A DNA stretch of 64,000 nt from an uncultured Bacteroidales bacterium (GTDB lineage: Bacteria; Bacteroidota; Bacteroidia; Bacteroidales; UBA932), in NCBI GenBank assembly GCA_900318015.1, contig ONJB01000015.1, positions 1 to 64,000 on the forward strand, written 5' to 3'. The notes beneath the pieces are model-generated. The model saw only the letters and a program-made list of their open reading frames with translations. It ran no database searches and was not told where the DNA came from. The position numbers were made by a program, and so were the translations under genes. Within the stretch, counting starts at the first letter, position 1; every line of letters starts with the position of its first letter. Positions 3,120 to 42,642 of this stretch are shown in pieces.

Positions 3120-3365
3120 ATGAAAAAGGACCGTATCATAGGGATGTTGGCCATCGGGCTCCTGGGCCTGCTGGGTTTTTCGTCTTGCAGCCCCCGGCTG
3201 CGGCCGCGCCAGACGGCCGATCCGGTGGATACGCTCAAGGTGCATCTGCCTGACACCATCATTTTCAGGCAGAATCCGGATACGCCCATCAAACTGATGT
3301 ACGGGGTCCCGCCGGCGCGTTTCGAGAAGATGGAAGCGCCGGAGAAACAGTTAAAAACGGAGTAA
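3120..3365 (+). CDS. Short lipoprotein of the rSAM/lipoprotein cluster (81 aa)
   Basis: Predicted outer-membrane or periplasmic lipoprotein of unknown function. A lysine-containing N-terminus and hydrophobic stretch lead to the lipobox LLGFSSC with the lipidated cysteine at residue 23. The mature part is only about 58 residues, rich in Pro and charged residues, and carries YGVPPA at residues 61-66 near its end. The two larger lipoproteins of the cluster have the same YGxPxA motif soon after their lipid cysteine. It lacks the beta-sandwich-like region they share, so it looks like a reduced member of the family. It ends two bases before the next gene. The start is the ATG at 3120; an in-frame ATG at 3078 would place extra residues before the signal peptide. 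Confidence 0.8.
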   Translation: MKKDRIIGMLAIGLLGLLGFSSCSPRLRPRQTADPVDTLKVHLPDTIIFRQNPDTPIKLMYGVPPARFEKMEAPEKQLKTE

Positions 3366-3367
3366 CG

Positions 3368-3838
3368 ATGAAATCTGCACTGAAAAAAGGATGGAGGTAC
3401 CTGCTGGGTGGCGTCATGACGCTGCTCGGATTCGGTGGATGCAACAAGGAAGAAATCCTGGACAATGGCGGCGTCATGGTTATGTACGGCCAGCCGACCG
3501 CCCTTTATCGGGTGATTGGGACCGTGAAGGACTCCTCGAAGAAGCCGATACAAGGGATCCGGGTCGTCATCGCGCCCAGCAATTATTCCCAGGATAACGA
3601 TACGCTTTATACGGATGCCTCCGGCCGCTTCGAGAAAGATCAGCTCAAGTACAGCTGGCCGGATGAATTGAAGAACGTCACCGTGCGTTTTGAAGACGTG
3701 GACGGCGCCGAGAACGGTTCCTATCAAACGAAGGAATTGAAGCGGTCCGACATTCAGGTAAAGCAGGAGGACAAAGGAAAAGGGTGGTTCCAGGGTCGTT
3801 TCAACGTGACGGCCGATGCTGTCCTGGAGAAAAAATAA
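3368..3838 (+). CDS. Radical SAM-associated putative lipoprotein (copy 1, 156 aa)
   Basis: Lipoprotein of the kind found next to a dedicated radical SAM/SPASM enzyme in Bacteroidetes; its function is unknown. The signal peptide carries a Lys-Gly-Trp element (KKGWRYLLG) and the lipobox LLGFGGC, lipidated at Cys25. YGQPTA follows at residues 40-45. Next comes a region resembling a carboxypeptidase-regulatory-like beta-sandwich: GTVKD, PIQGIRVV, DTLYTDASGRFEKD, VRFEDVDG and NGSYQTK. The protein is clearly homologous to the lipoprotein at 4926 along its whole length. The stop codon shares one base with the start of the radical SAM gene (TAATG), which implies coupled translation. Confidence 0.88.
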   Translation: MKSALKKGWRYLLGGVMTLLGFGGCNKEEILDNGGVMVMYGQPTALYRVIGTVKDSSKKPIQGIRVVIAPSNYSQDNDTLYTDASGRFEKDQLKYSWPDELKNVTVRFEDVDGAENGSYQTKELKRSDIQVKQEDKGKGWFQGRFNVTADAVLEKK

Positions 3839-4923
3839 TGGAAGAAAGACTTTCGCTCAGGCGCCGTATCGCGCTGGATATCACGAAGAAGCTGCAGGAT
3901 GATGTGATTGCCTCACATCCGCTCCGGCAGCTTTTTTGGGAGTGTACCCTCCGCTGTAACCACCATTGCCGTCACTGCGGCAGCGATTGCAAGCAGACGG
4001 CCACCGTCAAGGATATGCCGATGGCAGATTTCGCCAAGGTCCTGGACAGTGTCCGTGCCGCGACGGATCCGCACAAAGTGATGATCAACGTCACCGGCGG
4101 CGAGCCGCTGATGCGTCCCGACCTGGAAGCCTGCGGCCGGATGATGTACGAGAAAGAGTTCCCCTGGGGCATGGTCACGAACGGTTGGGGCCTGACGCCG
4201 GAGCGCTATCAGCGCCTCCTGCAGAGCGGCCTCCGCGCGATGACCATCAGCCTGGACGGACTGGAAGCGGACCACGACTGGATGCGCGGCGTCCCCGGCT
4301 CCTTCAAGCGCGCCTCGGCCGCCATCAAGATGGTCATCGACTCCGGCGAAATCGAGTTCGACGTTGTCACTTGCGTCAACCGGCGGAATTACCCGCATCT
4401 GAATGAACTGAAAGAATACCTTATAGGCCTGGGCCTCAAGGAGTGGCGCCTGTTCACCGTATTTCCGGTCGGACGCGCCGCTCAGGATCCTGAACTGCAG
4501 CTTACCGGGGAGGAACTCCGGGGCCTGATGGAATTCATCAAGGCCACCCGGAAAGAGGGCCGCATCATGGCCGAATTCGCGTGCGAAGGCTTCCTGGGCA
4601 ATTACGAAGGCGATGTCCGGGGCCATTTCTACATGTGCCAGGCCGGCGTCTCCGTGGGCTCCGTCCTCGCCGACGGCTCCATCTCCGCCTGCGCCAGCAT
4701 CCGTGCGGACTACCACCAGGGCAACATCTATGAGGATGACTTCATGGAAGTCTGGAACACCCGCTTCCAGCCCTACCGCGACCGCTCCTGGATGTACAAG
4801 GACGACTGCGCCGCCTGCCGCTTCTGGAAATACTGCCGCGGCAACGGCATGCACCTCCGTGACGAAAACGGTCGCCTGATCCAGTGCCTCTTGAAGAATT
4901 TGACTATAAATACGGAGAAATAG
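3838..4923 (+). CDS. Radical SAM/SPASM enzyme of the rSAM/lipoprotein system (361 aa)
   Basis: Radical S-adenosylmethionine enzyme with the CX3CX2C cluster motif at Cys40-Cys44-Cys47, preceded by an extra Cys36 and followed by Cys51. The usual core motifs follow: NVTGGEPLMR (the GGE motif), the VTNGW strand and ISLDGLEADHDWMRG. The C-terminus is a SPASM-type auxiliary Fe-S region with scattered cysteines (MCQAG, ISACASI, DDCAACRFWKYCRGN, IQCLL). Such enzymes usually modify peptides or proteins, but no substrate is proven here. The neighbours suggest the adjacent lipoproteins are its targets or partners; that is inference. The ATG at 3838 overlaps the previous stop codon, and the next lipoprotein starts two bases after the end of this gene. 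I recall TIGRFAM models for an rSAM/lipoprotein system (TIGR04133/TIGR04134, numbers from memory). Confidence 0.93.
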   Translation: MEERLSLRRRIALDITKKLQDDVIASHPLRQLFWECTLRCNHHCRHCGSDCKQTATVKDMPMADFAKVLDSVRAATDPHKVMINVTGGEPLMRPDLEACGRMMYEKEFPWGMVTNGWGLTPERYQRLLQSGLRAMTISLDGLEADHDWMRGVPGSFKRASAAIKMVIDSGEIEFDVVTCVNRRNYPHLNELKEYLIGLGLKEWRLFTVFPVGRAAQDPELQLTGEELRGLMEFIKATRKEGRIMAEFACEGFLGNYEGDVRGHFYMCQAGVSVGSVLADGSISACASIRADYHQGNIYEDDFMEVWNTRFQPYRDRSWMYKDDCAACRFWKYCRGNGMHLRDENGRLIQCLLKNLTINTEK

Positions 4924-4925
4924 CG

Positions 4926-5384
4926 ATGAAAGCTGCACTTGGAAAAGGATGGAAATGGCTGCTGGGCATTTTCATGAGCCTGCTGGGATTCAGCGGATGC
5001 GGGAAGATCGGTATCTTCCGTGAAGAATATGGTTCTCCCTATGCCAATTTTAAACTGCTCGGCGACGTGAAAGACATGAAAGGGAATCCTATCCGAGGAA
5101 TCCGTGTCGTGTATGACCGTCTTCCGGAAGATGAAACCTGGGGAAAGGATACCTTGTACACCGACCCGCAGGGACACTTCGAGAAGGACTTGCCCGATTT
5201 CATGCGGATGACCGGTACGGTAGTGAGGTTCGACGATGTCGATGGTGAGGCTAACGGATCCTATCGATCCAAAGTCCTTACGGACCAGGAAATAGAGATT
5301 GTGCAGACGAAAAAGGGTGACAAGAAATGGTTCGAAGGCGCTTTCACCATCAAGGCTGATGCCGTCCTGGAAGAAGACAACTGA
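4926..5384 (+). CDS. Radical SAM-associated putative lipoprotein (copy 2, 152 aa)
   Basis: Paralogue of the lipoprotein at 3368. The signal peptide has the same Lys-Gly-Trp element (GKGWKWLLG) and lipobox LLGFSGC, with lipidated Cys25. YGSPYA lies at residues 35-40, followed by GDVKD, PIRGIRVV, DTLYTDPQGHFEKD, VRFDDVDG, NGSYRSK and a WFEG...ADAVLEE end. The two copies keep the same order of blocks but differ in loop lengths, which points to an old duplication held by selection. The ATG at 4926 is two bases after the radical SAM stop codon and starts the signal peptide directly; an upstream ATG at 4884 lies inside the enzyme gene. A convergent terminator follows at 5399-5435. Confidence 0.88.
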   Translation: MKAALGKGWKWLLGIFMSLLGFSGCGKIGIFREEYGSPYANFKLLGDVKDMKGNPIRGIRVVYDRLPEDETWGKDTLYTDPQGHFEKDLPDFMRMTGTVVRFDDVDGEANGSYRSKVLTDQEIEIVQTKKGDKKWFEGAFTIKADAVLEEDN

Positions 5385-39471: not shown

Positions 39472-42400
39472 ATGAAAAAACGATTGTTTTTCCTCGTTTG
39501 CCTGCTTGTCTCGCAGGTGGCCGGCGCCCAGGGACTTTATGAACAGTTCGCGGATCCTCCGCAGGAAGCCCGGCCGCGCGTGTGGTGGCATTGGATGGAC
39601 GGGAACGTGTCCATCGACGGAATCACGAAGGATATCGAGTGGATGGAACGGGTCGGGATCGGCGGTTTCCACCAGTTCGATGCCGGCGGCATCGGCATGC
39701 TTCCCATCGTGGATGAAACCATGCCGTACCTGTCGCCGCAGTGGCAGGTAGCGGTCCGGTATGCCATGAACCTGGCGGCCGAGAAAGGTATGGAGACAGC
39801 TGTTGCGTCCGCTCCGGGCTGGAGTTCCACGGGAGGTCCGTGGGTGAAGCCGGCGGACGCCATGAAGAAACTGACTTGGCGGACGGCCGAAGTGACCGGT
39901 GGCAAGGTGCAGCTGATCCGCATGCCGGCGCATTTCGACACGCCCGGTACCTATCAGAATATCGCCGACGGCGGCGATGCGGAGCATTGGTACCAGCATG
40001 TGGCCACCCTGGCCGTGAAACTCCCCGATGCGGAAAAGTCCATGCAGGAAATGGGGGCCAGCGTCACCGCTTCCGGCGGCCATTTCACGGTCAGCGAGCT
40101 CACGGACGGGGATTTCAGCCAGGACCTGGAACTTCCCCTGCCCGCAGGCGGGGAGTATGCCTGGATCCAGTATTCTTTCGACCATCCCCAGATGATCCGC
40201 GCCCTGACGCTTTGCGGCGGCCAGCGGCGCAGCATCTGGCGTAATACGCCCCCTACCTATGAGAACCGCCTGGAAGCCAGCGACGATGGTGTCACCTGGC
40301 GTCGGGTGTGTGACATTCCGTCGGCCTGCAGCCAGGTCCTGACGATGGATATCCCGGCCACGCAGGCACGGCATTTCCGCCTTCTGGTCCGCCAGAAAAC
40401 GAGGATTCCGGAGTTTGTCCTGCACGGGGTCGTCAAGGTCAATCATGCCGAGGACAAGGCGGGCTTCGCCGCGCCGTTCGACTTCGCCGATTATGTGACG
40501 CCAGAAACCGGCGATCCGGTCCTGCAGGTCGAGGATCTCACCCTGGTTGACCAGGGCGGGAAACTGATCTGGAATGTTCCTCCGGGACGCTGGCGCATCT
40601 ACCGGTTCGGCGTTTCCCTGACCGGGAAGAAGAACCACCCGGCCCCGCCGGAGGCGACGGGCCTGGAGGTGGACAAGTTGGACCCGAAGGCCTGGGAAGC
40701 CTATTTCAAGGAGTTCTTCCGCATCTATCAGGGCGCTCCGGTCCAGTATGTCCTCACGGACAGCTACGAAGCCGGGCAGATGACCTGGACAGGGAACATG
40801 TTTCAGGAATTCAAGGAGCGGCGGGGCTATTCGCTGTTTCCGTGGCTACCGGCACTGACCGGGGAGATTCTCCGCAATACGACCGAGACGGAGCACTTCC
40901 TTTTCGATTGGCGGCGTACGCTCGGTGAACTGATGGCGGAGAATTACGACCGCCTGGGCGGCATCGCCCGCGCAGCCGGCCTGAAAGGACGCTATGCCGA
41001 ATCACACGAGAACGGGCATGTGTTCGTGGGGGACGGCATGGACCTCAAGCGGACGGCCGACATTCCGATGTCCGCCATCTGGATGGACAATGCCGGTGCC
41101 GGCTCCTCGATTCCGATGGCCATGGCCGACATCCGTGAATCGGCCTCCGTGGCCCATATCTATGGGCAGAACATCGTCGCGGCGGAATCTTTCACCACCA
41201 GCGGCGTAGGCGGCAAGAACTATTCCTACTGCCCCGAAAACATGAAGAATACGGCCGATATCGCCCTTTCCTGCGGCCTGAACCGCTTCGTCATCCATGA
41301 GACCTCCCACCAGCCGGACGACCGGCACAAGCCGGGCCTGGACCTCATCGGCTATGGTCAGTGGTTTAACCGCCACGATACCTGGGCGGAAGAGGCGCGC
41401 CCCTGGATGGATTACCTGGCCCGCAGCTCCTATCTGCTGCAGCAGGGCCATTTCAAGGCCGATATCCTCTATTATTACGGGGAGGATAACTGCATCACCG
41501 GGCTGTTCGGGAACCAGCTGCCGGACATCCCGGCTGGCTACGCGTACGATTTCGTGAATCCGTACGCACTGCAGCATGCCGTCTTTCCCCTCGACGGCCA
41601 CTTGGTCACGGAGTCGGGAATGAGCTACAAACTGCTGGTGCTCGGTCCCAACTGCAAGACCATGACCTATGCGCTCCTCAAGCGGATCCTGTATCTGGCA
41701 CAGGCCGGAATCCCGGTGTGCGGCACCCTGCCGGAACGTTGCGCCTCGCTGACGGACCACCAGGAAGCCTTCGACCTGCTGCTCATGCAGCTCAAGCCGC
41801 TCTTTCTGGACATGCCGGTGAAAGCGGCGCTGAACGCCCGGGGAATCGAGCCGGATTGCATGATTCCCGATGATTGGGCCTATGTCCACCGGGAGACGGA
41901 CCGGGAAGACATCTGGTGGATCCGGAACTTCTCCGGCGTCCCTGCCTCTTCCGTCGTCCTGCTCCGGGGCGGGGAAGGGCAGCCGCGGGTACTGGATCCT
42001 GTCACCGGGAAGGTGCAGAGAATCACGGCGTCCACCTCGCCGGACGGCTACAGGTACTTCAATCTGAATATGGAGGCGGATGATGCCCTGTTCGTCGTCA
42101 TCGGCAAGGCTCCGGAAGTGCAGGTTCCCGTCGCTCCGGTCCGGAAAGTGCCGGTCCTCACGATGAAAGGCTCCTGGAACCTTTCCTTTGATTCCGGCCT
42201 GGGCGCTCCTCCGACGGCGGTTTTCGACCAGCTGATGTCCTATACGGAATCGACGGATCCGGCCATCCGCTACTATTCAGGCACGGTTACGTACCGGAAA
42301 GCTTTCACCCTGAAAAAGAGACATCTCAGGAAGGCGGCGGCCTTTGAAATCGACCTGGGCAGCGTCAAGAACATCGCCCGCGTGAAGGTGAACGGATTTG

Positions 42401-42642
42401 ACGTGGGGGTCGCCTGGAAAGCGCCTTTCCGGTTGGAAATACCGACGGCTTATCTGCACTCCGGCCGGAATGATTTGGAAGTGAAGGTCATCAACCTCTG
42501 GCCGAACCGGATCATCGGCGACCTGCAGCCGGGCGCCGGCCGGAAATGGACCTATACCGCTTCGAACTGGTACACGGCCGATTCACCCTTGCTGCCTTCC
42601 GGCCTGCTGGGCCCGGTATCGGTGTCACGCATCCAGAAGTAA
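39472..42642 (+). CDS. GH106-like alpha-L-rhamnosidase (secreted glycoside hydrolase)
   Basis: Secreted glycoside hydrolase of 1056 residues. The signal peptide ends near VAGAQ, and the mature protein begins with the family landmark EARPRVWWHWMDGNVSIDGI. The (beta/alpha)8-type catalytic region continues with GIGGFHQFDAGG, ASAPGWSSTGGPWV, YVLTDSYEAGQMTW, YAESHENGHVF and HETSHQPDDRHKPG. The C-terminus has beta-sandwich domains (IARVKVNGFDVGVAWKAPF, a galactose-binding-type carbohydrate module). GH106 enzymes remove alpha-L-rhamnose from pectins such as RG-II. The gene stands alone, without SusC/SusD or a regulator. A hairpin terminator lies just beyond the stop, inside lplA. Confidence 0.88.
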   Translation: MKKRLFFLVCLLVSQVAGAQGLYEQFADPPQEARPRVWWHWMDGNVSIDGITKDIEWMERVGIGGFHQFDAGGIGMLPIVDETMPYLSPQWQVAVRYAMNLAAEKGMETAVASAPGWSSTGGPWVKPADAMKKLTWRTAEVTGGKVQLIRMPAHFDTPGTYQNIADGGDAEHWYQHVATLAVKLPDAEKSMQEMGASVTASGGHFTVSELTDGDFSQDLELPLPAGGEYAWIQYSFDHPQMIRALTLCGGQRRSIWRNTPPTYENRLEASDDGVTWRRVCDIPSACSQVLTMDIPATQARHFRLLVRQKTRIPEFVLHGVVKVNHAEDKAGFAAPFDFADYVTPETGDPVLQVEDLTLVDQGGKLIWNVPPGRWRIYRFGVSLTGKKNHPAPPEATGLEVDKLDPKAWEAYFKEFFRIYQGAPVQYVLTDSYEAGQMTWTGNMFQEFKERRGYSLFPWLPALTGEILRNTTETEHFLFDWRRTLGELMAENYDRLGGIARAAGLKGRYAESHENGHVFVGDGMDLKRTADIPMSAIWMDNAGAGSSIPMAMADIRESASVAHIYGQNIVAAESFTTSGVGGKNYSYCPENMKNTADIALSCGLNRFVIHETSHQPDDRHKPGLDLIGYGQWFNRHDTWAEEARPWMDYLARSSYLLQQGHFKADILYYYGEDNCITGLFGNQLPDIPAGYAYDFVNPYALQHAVFPLDGHLVTESGMSYKLLVLGPNCKTMTYALLKRILYLAQAGIPVCGTLPERCASLTDHQEAFDLLLMQLKPLFLDMPVKAALNARGIEPDCMIPDDWAYVHRETDREDIWWIRNFSGVPASSVVLLRGGEGQPRVLDPVTGKVQRITASTSPDGYRYFNLNMEADDALFVVIGKAPEVQVPVAPVRKVPVLTMKGSWNLSFDSGLGAPPTAVFDQLMSYTESTDPAIRYYSGTVTYRKAFTLKKRHLRKAAAFEIDLGSVKNIARVKVNGFDVGVAWKAPFRLEIPTAYLHSGRNDLEVKVINLWPNRIIGDLQPGAGRKWTYTASNWYTADSPLLPSGLLGPVSVSRIQK

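Follow-up and report, generated by a model that had tools for sequence, protein, structure and literature searches.

A radical SAM/SPASM enzyme packed among lipoproteins that share a Tyr-Gly motif: a candidate splicease system in Bacteroidales

What a radical S-adenosylmethionine (SAM) enzyme might do among lipoprotein genes is the question raised by a compact locus at positions 3120-5384 of a 64,000-nucleotide stretch (the window) from an uncultured Bacteroidales bacterium (GenBank assembly GCA_900318015.1, contig ONJB01000015.1). Four genes are tightly packed there on the forward strand: lipo0 (3120-3365), encoding a domain-free lipoprotein of 81 aa; lipo1 (3368-3838), a lipoprotein of 156 aa; a radical SAM/SPASM enzyme of 361 aa (3838-4923); and lipo2 (4926-5384), a lipoprotein of 152 aa. 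Gaps of 2 bp separate lipo0 from lipo1 and the enzyme from lipo2, and the stop codon of lipo1 overlaps the ATG of the enzyme by one base (TAATG, 3836-3840). The original prediction, made from the letters alone, had described a packed unit of one such enzyme with three lipoproteins, and the spacing, the CX3CX2C motif and the SPASM cysteines were all borne out. The reading that we favor, with a probability of about two in three, is that this radical SAM/SPASM protein is of the splicease type and acts on lipoproteins carrying a Tyr-Gly (YG) motif.

The enzyme scored 562.2 bits against the NCBIfam model TIGR04133 ('rSAM_w_lipo', cut-off 425), and lipo1 and lipo2 scored 96.6 and 92.9 bits against TIGR04134 ('lipo_with_rSAM', cut-off 39.8), which places all three above the curated cut-offs. 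Family-level models for the pairing exist, as noted in the original prediction; both are hypothetical equivalogs, models without a function, and a search of the literature on their names returned no papers, so that in the literature searched no function is established. All three proteins have a lipobox, read by eye (LGFSSC with Cys23 in lipo0, Cys25 in lipo1 and in lipo2), but lipo0 reached 16.3 bits against TIGR04134 through its signal peptide alone and is not a member of the family. A Pfam search gave no family for lipo0, and its own genome contained no paralogue beyond two weak matches in long frames. Lipo1 and lipo2 contain a weak CarboxypepD_reg-like beta domain that stays under the gathering score (PF13620 at 1.5e-6 for lipo1). 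The enzyme matches PF04055 and PF13186. Its SAM 4Fe-4S site, CX3CX2C (C40-C44-C47) followed by Gly-Ser, is encoded at 3955-3984 (C40 to S49, forward strand) and the SPASM domain (C267, G280, C285, C324, C327, C333, C350; PF13186 at 2.4e-7) at 4636-4887 on the same strand; in 56 aligned enzymes the CX3CX2C cysteines and the listed SPASM residues were invariant, except C350, which was present in at least 90%. A sequence search of the PDB with the enzyme returned nine distant radical SAM proteins, and one with lipo1 gave no match below E 0.14. The AlphaFold2 model of the enzyme had a mean predicted local distance difference test score (pLDDT) of 62.2 and fell below 50 over large stretches of the SPASM region; it was not used.

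The pairing was followed through 294 genomes of the order. TIGR04133 was found at E<=1e-60 in 68 of them and above its cut-off in 61, and TIGR04134 above its cut-off in 38. Because 36 of these 38 genomes also have TIGR04133 (8.8 expected, p=7e-25), the enzyme and the lipoproteins can be regarded as a real unit, and the lipoprotein family does not occur widely without the enzyme, the finding that was to have told against their association. The two genomes with TIGR04134 and without TIGR04133 are G215 and G286 (G numbers denote genomes, L numbers loci), and in 22 of the 68 TIGR04133 genomes TIGR04134 went unmatched at E<=1e-5. When 392 genomes were drawn evenly from the phylum, each family was above its cut-off in three; the two genomes with both families were from Bacteroidales, so that within the phylum it is mainly this order that carries the pair. 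A search with the enzyme recovered 16 loci, 15 of them from metagenome-assembled genomes (MAGs) of Bacteroidales or Bacteroidia, many from ruminant digestive tracts according to their titles, and one from a deltaproteobacterial MAG (23% identity).

Three further matches were seen. A TIGR04133/TIGR04134 pair is present on plasmid pTS1 of the spirochaete Treponema saccharophilum (L234), beside a gene with a DNA-invertase annotation, and this copy was likely acquired by horizontal transfer. The window's own genome contains a second TIGR04133 gene near a contig end (L105, G000:C64:54828-55715), whose open frame loses the C-terminal SPASM cysteines while traces of them stand in another frame; it is a decayed gene or an assembly error. 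A TIGR04134 match in G106 (L066, G106:C5:112958-113386) has one in-frame TGA.

All three lipoproteins of the window carry a predicted X-Tyr-Gly site, read from the sequence: Met60-Tyr61-Gly62 in lipo0 (3297-3305), Met39-Tyr40-Gly41 in lipo1 (3482-3490; MYGQPTALY) and Glu34-Tyr35-Gly36 in lipo2 (5025-5033; EYGSPYANF), each on the forward strand. In the AlphaFold2 model of lipo2 (mean pLDDT 77.0, predicted template modeling score 0.64), Tyr35-Gly36 forms the end of a linker (residues 22-36, pLDDT <50), ahead of a beta-strand domain (40-148). The motif was counted in 116 stretches (the first 12 kb of the window, L009-L023 and L084-L183), which represent the surroundings of TIGR04133 matches in the 294 genomes and of unlinked lipoprotein matches; L024, the sole locus from outside Bacteroidales, was excluded from the motif scripts. 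Lipoproteins were called with a simple home-made lipobox rule, and 'family' in these counts refers to our own iterated profile (113 members), which is wider than the NCBI cut-off. Close relatives were counted separately, so that neither the motif counts nor those for the enzyme signature given below are independent events; the gapped-pair search clusters such relatives.

A YG lipoprotein adjoins 89 of the 99 enzyme open reading frames (ORFs) in these stretches, mostly as Y-G-x-P and on several unrelated scaffolds. YG as the link among the lipoproteins of the cluster, across unrelated scaffolds, is new here: lipo0 and many neighbors elsewhere fall outside TIGR04134, and YG unites them with its members. 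Within 1.5 kb of an enzyme, 78 of the 80 lipobox-bearing family lipoproteins had YG and 73 had YGxP, and the corresponding figures for family lipoproteins elsewhere were 12 and 7 of 15. Lipoproteins outside the family that lay on the same strand at most 300 bases away had YG in 29 and YGxP in 20 of 34 cases; for those at a distance of 300-1500 bases, the figures were 17 and 8 of 27. Among 96 control lipoproteins, which were either on the opposite strand or beyond 1.5 kb, YG occurred in 46 and YGxP in one (16 and 0, respectively, among the 55 controls of at most 300 aa). In a wider set, YGxP was present in 82/92 family and 27/46 non-family neighbors, where shuffled sequences gave expectations of 1.97 and 0.33. 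A blind search for gapped residue pairs gave its four highest ranks to YG (29 seen, 6.4 expected), Y..P, G.P and P...Y in 37 non-family clusters, which together spell Y-G-x-P-x-x-x-Y; in 74 family clusters Y..P came first and YG sixth, amid domain patterns such as W..G. Among distinct YG sites, proline was found at +3 in 89/126 family and 35/50 non-family cases and tyrosine or phenylalanine at +7 in 56/126 and 21/50, and the residue before YG was free (Cys, Glu, Met, Gln, Lys, Val and others). An alignment of 41 lipoproteins had invariant Gly21, Cys25, Tyr35, Gly36 and Gly83; since its rows had been picked for YG it does not test the motif, for which the counts of 78/80 and 73/80 are the real test.

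The scaffolds that carry the motif differ widely. The extended motif of lipo0 is LMYGVPPARF, and LMYGVPP recurs in a short lipoprotein in 11 of the 13 relatives listed (L009-L019; it is missing from L020 and L021). At four loci (L012, L015, L016 and L017) a domain-free lipoprotein, 76-80 aa long and with YGPP in two or three copies, stands directly before the enzyme, in the position that a domain-bearing lipoprotein occupies in the window. Lipoproteins that by eye resemble coiled coils have one to three copies of YG.PE (L099, L102, L104, L107, L116, L117, L121), and a very short one, of 53 aa, has TKYGVPTSGF (L124). In some lipoproteins YG directly follows the lipid cysteine (CYGTP, e.g., L151), and in some proteins without a called lipobox it follows the likely end of the signal peptide (AQYGAPPSKF). 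The motif might be a mere docking or export element, with the enzyme modifying another residue of the lipoprotein or another molecule altogether, and the enzyme loci without an adjoining YG lipoprotein (L111, L115, L135) would fit such a role. We consider this improbable, since YG with its proline is the leading common feature among otherwise unrelated scaffolds and the two or three copies in several small proteins are what would be expected of modified sites. The same common motif supports the earlier suggestion that the lipoproteins are the substrates.

The enzymes have a signature of their own. Gly-Ser directly after CX3CX2C (HCGS) was found in 18 of 19 TIGR04133 proteins and 10 of 12 of their relatives in the tree described below (L186 and L192 lack it), and in none of 10 other SPASM proteins. 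An adjoining lipoprotein with YG anywhere in its mature part accompanies 89 of the 95 HCGS enzyme ORFs; of the remaining six, L108, L105 and L159 stand at contig ends, and the other three are genuine exceptions. Three intact enzymes lack HCGS (L162, L163, L182), and none of them has a YG lipoprotein, although at L162 two small nearby ORFs without a lipobox contain YG. The fourth enzyme without HCGS, L181, is cut by a contig end, yet a YG lipoprotein is present.

Relationships among the enzymes were analyzed with an unrooted tree of 41 hand-chosen sequences (344 columns; one Nostoc representative, PlpX itself absent). A split with 98/99 support united 19 TIGR04133 proteins with 12 enzymes of the PlpX, GDL and YG types, against 10 others (MftC, PqqE, NirJ, two TIGR04053 proteins, one from Rhizobium and four other SPASM proteins of Bacteroidales). 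In a second tree, computed after removal of five long rows (Rhizobium, NirJ, PqqE, L163 and L215), the same split reached 100/99. The enzyme therefore groups with the PlpX family rather than with other SPASM enzymes. MftC of the mycofactocin system, a SPASM enzyme that acts on the tyrosine of a peptide, falls outside this group and has HCLS instead of HCGS (one member used). For the PlpX-like proteins, TIGR04133 was the third-best of 18950 models at L186, L187, L188 and L191 and the fourth-best at L185, and L105 had TIGR04103, the PlpX family model, first after its own. Among the 50 plasmid matches listed, of 194 for the window enzyme, three TIGR04133 proteins were followed in score by an Agathobacter protein (143 bits), a Nostoc 'nif11-class peptide radical SAM maturase 3' (132 bits), Azospirillum GDL-motif maturases (119 and 116 bits) and then TIGR04053 (98 bits) and MftC (96 bits). 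A search of 158 genomes of the phylum with TIGR04103 yielded just four members at E<=1e-40, and searches with TIGR04545 and TIGR04053 mostly recovered TIGR04133 again (12/16 and 12/14 rows, respectively). As the window enzyme scored 129.7 bits against TIGR04103, far below the cut-off of 725, it is not filed in the PlpX family.

The model scores also bear on whether the lipoproteins are partners or regulators of an enzyme that makes a small cofactor or heme-like product, since for some members the AhbD and NirJ2 models come near or above TIGR04103. The tree, in which no confirmed AhbD was included, parts TIGR04133 from NirJ, PqqE and MftC; no tetrapyrrole gene was seen by eye beside the cluster, and the YG motif recurs on unrelated proteins. 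Such a function is very improbable.

The splicease PlpXY and its products, the spliceotides, were reportedly described by Morinaka (2018) and Scott (2022); PlpX is a member of IPR026482, which we take to be identical to TIGR04103. PMC11002830 describes PlpX as a SPASM radical SAM protein of IPR026482 and PlpY as a truncated recognition element (RRE). According to PMC10533398, X-Y-G is the site at which PlpXY removes tyramine (MYG and LYG in nature), the leader is dispensable, and splice tags from the PlpA2 core have the form (L/G)YGLPI; 939 predicted splicease systems are also mentioned there, among which the TIGR04133 family may be. In our comparison, the window and Nostoc enzymes were 28% identical over 330 aa. 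The Nostoc locus, which is of the PlpX family, encodes three precursors (two nif11, one NHLP) as well as a 72-codon ORF behind the enzyme. YG is found in one of the three, within ALYGLPPELF at its C-terminus (GGRGSIALYGLPPELF), nearly identical to LMYGVPPARF of lipo0. The locus in the window therefore resembles PlpXY in the radical SAM/SPASM enzyme, the X-Y-G motif, the tree group and this extended motif. It differs in that the substrates would be lipoproteins with signal peptides, many with a folded domain, and not nif11 or NHLP leader peptides, and in its TIGR04103 score and the lack of a PlpY match (one query). When the ORFs of the cluster were read by eye, no transporter or exporter, maturation protease or leader-type precursor was seen, as the original prediction had stated, and by these features it does not resemble a natural-product locus for ribosomally synthesized and modified peptides. 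The further conclusion, that it stands apart from peptide natural-product systems, is not supported, given the grouping with PlpX-type maturases and the motif in the Nostoc precursor.

The enzyme could also act on YG without splicing, leaving a tyrosine cross-link (cyclophane or ether), an epimerized residue or an oxidized tyrosine. SPASM enzymes form many types of link, the tyrosine belongs to a conserved pair, the aromatic residue at +7 is frequent and the stem that leads to TIGR04133 is long, at 1.61 changes per column in the first tree. Against this, the glycine at +1 is fixed while X is free, as at X-Y-G splice sites, and the 41 aligned lipoproteins have no conserved cysteine besides the lipid cysteine. 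The residue at Y+2 is glycine in KYGGPTADY and KYGGPPVDY, whereas a three-residue cyclophane, as we understand it, needs a side chain there. On balance, a modification of this kind appears unlikely. Two specific products were rejected: thioether chemistry of the sactipeptide type, because of the missing cysteine, and the three-residue cyclophane as a general product, because glycine is possible at Y+2.

Several observations weigh against a splicease. No YG lipoprotein is within reach of the HCGS enzymes L111, L115 and L135, and L186 and L192, in the same clade, have no convincing YG neighbor (none at L192; at L186 YG occurs in ORFs of 185, 38 and 26 aa and was taken for chance). Two of the 80 family lipoproteins near an enzyme lack YG (CYAS in L158, KGAP in L161), and the genomes G124 and G165 contain no TIGR04134-like protein. 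Orphan lipoproteins of at least 60 bits kept YG in 11 of 12 cases with an enzyme in the genome and in 2 of 4 where none was found (p=0.14, counted by hand; L177, with three, L178 and L180 are in neither group), which does not prove that YG depends on the enzyme. Single cases are suggestive and not significant: G286, where no enzyme was found, has GNGSPYAKF where others have YGSPYAKF, and G081 has MYYEPSNY. The window enzyme scored higher against TIGR04053 (131.3 bits) than against TIGR04103, with AhbD close behind (124.2 bits), and L131, L154 and L163 scored heme-type families above TIGR04103. The long stem of TIGR04133 means that its reaction may differ, and a PlpY-like ORF was not found outside the Nostoc locus (one query). 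According to PMC10533398, just two tag placements in FtsZ were accepted by PlpXY, so that for PlpXY YG alone is insufficient.

If the enzyme is nevertheless a splicease, we infer the following course from the gene order, the co-occurrence, the shared motif, the grouping with the PlpX family and the near-identical Nostoc motif. A stand-alone cytoplasmic splicease would act on the unprocessed lipoproteins at X-Tyr-Gly, which in lipo1 and lipo2 lies in the linker after the signal peptide. A piece of backbone, tyramine (C8H9NO), would be excised and the ends rejoined, with a reactive group left behind. Modification before export is the simplest reading, because the enzyme has no signal peptide and radical SAM chemistry requires the cytoplasm. 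After export and lipidation, the envelope would display lipoproteins that carry a ketoamide electrophile close to their anchor. The most likely use would be the covalent capture of nucleophilic partners, e.g., serine or cysteine proteases: according to a review (PMC10373908, citing Scott 2022), beta-residues give spliced peptides potent protease inhibition, which would make a membrane-bound covalent inhibitor the likeliest use. The full proposal, that envelope lipoproteins of Bacteroidales are edited to alpha-keto-beta-amino acids before export, with X setting the protease trapped, and so provide rumen and gut bacteria with a tunable array of cell-bound covalent inhibitors, is speculative and probably does not hold in its entirety. 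With a splicease, a pair present in about one-fifth of the genomes sampled from the order (TIGR04133, 61/294) would gain a concrete site and reaction, backbone splicing would extend beyond leader-peptide products to membrane-anchored and often folded proteins, and the envelope of bacteria of the digestive tract would carry reactive ketoamides. For protein labeling, a stand-alone enzyme that recognizes a short motif would also make a useful tool.

The TIGR03913 'GDL motif' maturases, which occur with DUF1843 mini-proteins, share the tree group of the window enzyme. At three plasmid loci (L237, L239, L240), YG was present in 6 of the 8 mini-proteins listed, N-terminal in 4, and both mini-proteins translated from the GDL locus L188 carry YG near the N-terminus. 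Unlike the proteins beside TIGR04133 enzymes, these have no signal peptide (by eye) and are not lipoproteins; DUF1843 may be a splice substrate family. The radical SAM enzyme at L185 (5004-7147, G155), which has a long C-terminal extension, has as its neighbor a protein of 214 aa that ends in six KYGYP repeats (five KYGYPC, then KYGYPGC) and is likely a multi-site substrate. On an Agathobacter rectalis plasmid (NZ_CP143948.1, L233:3809-3916), an unannotated 35-aa ORF ending in FGPVMYGTGVRM precedes by ∼80 bases a radical SAM gene that belongs to the same tree group, and is a candidate tiny precursor.

In the window, the cluster is preceded by surE- and lpxB-like genes and followed, on the opposite strand, by a large ORF that resembles an S9 peptidase; these names come from a reading of the sequence. 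At 39472-42642 the window encodes a GH106 alpha-L-rhamnosidase (PF17132, 827 bits) with a C-terminal GH2-type sugar-binding domain (PF02837).

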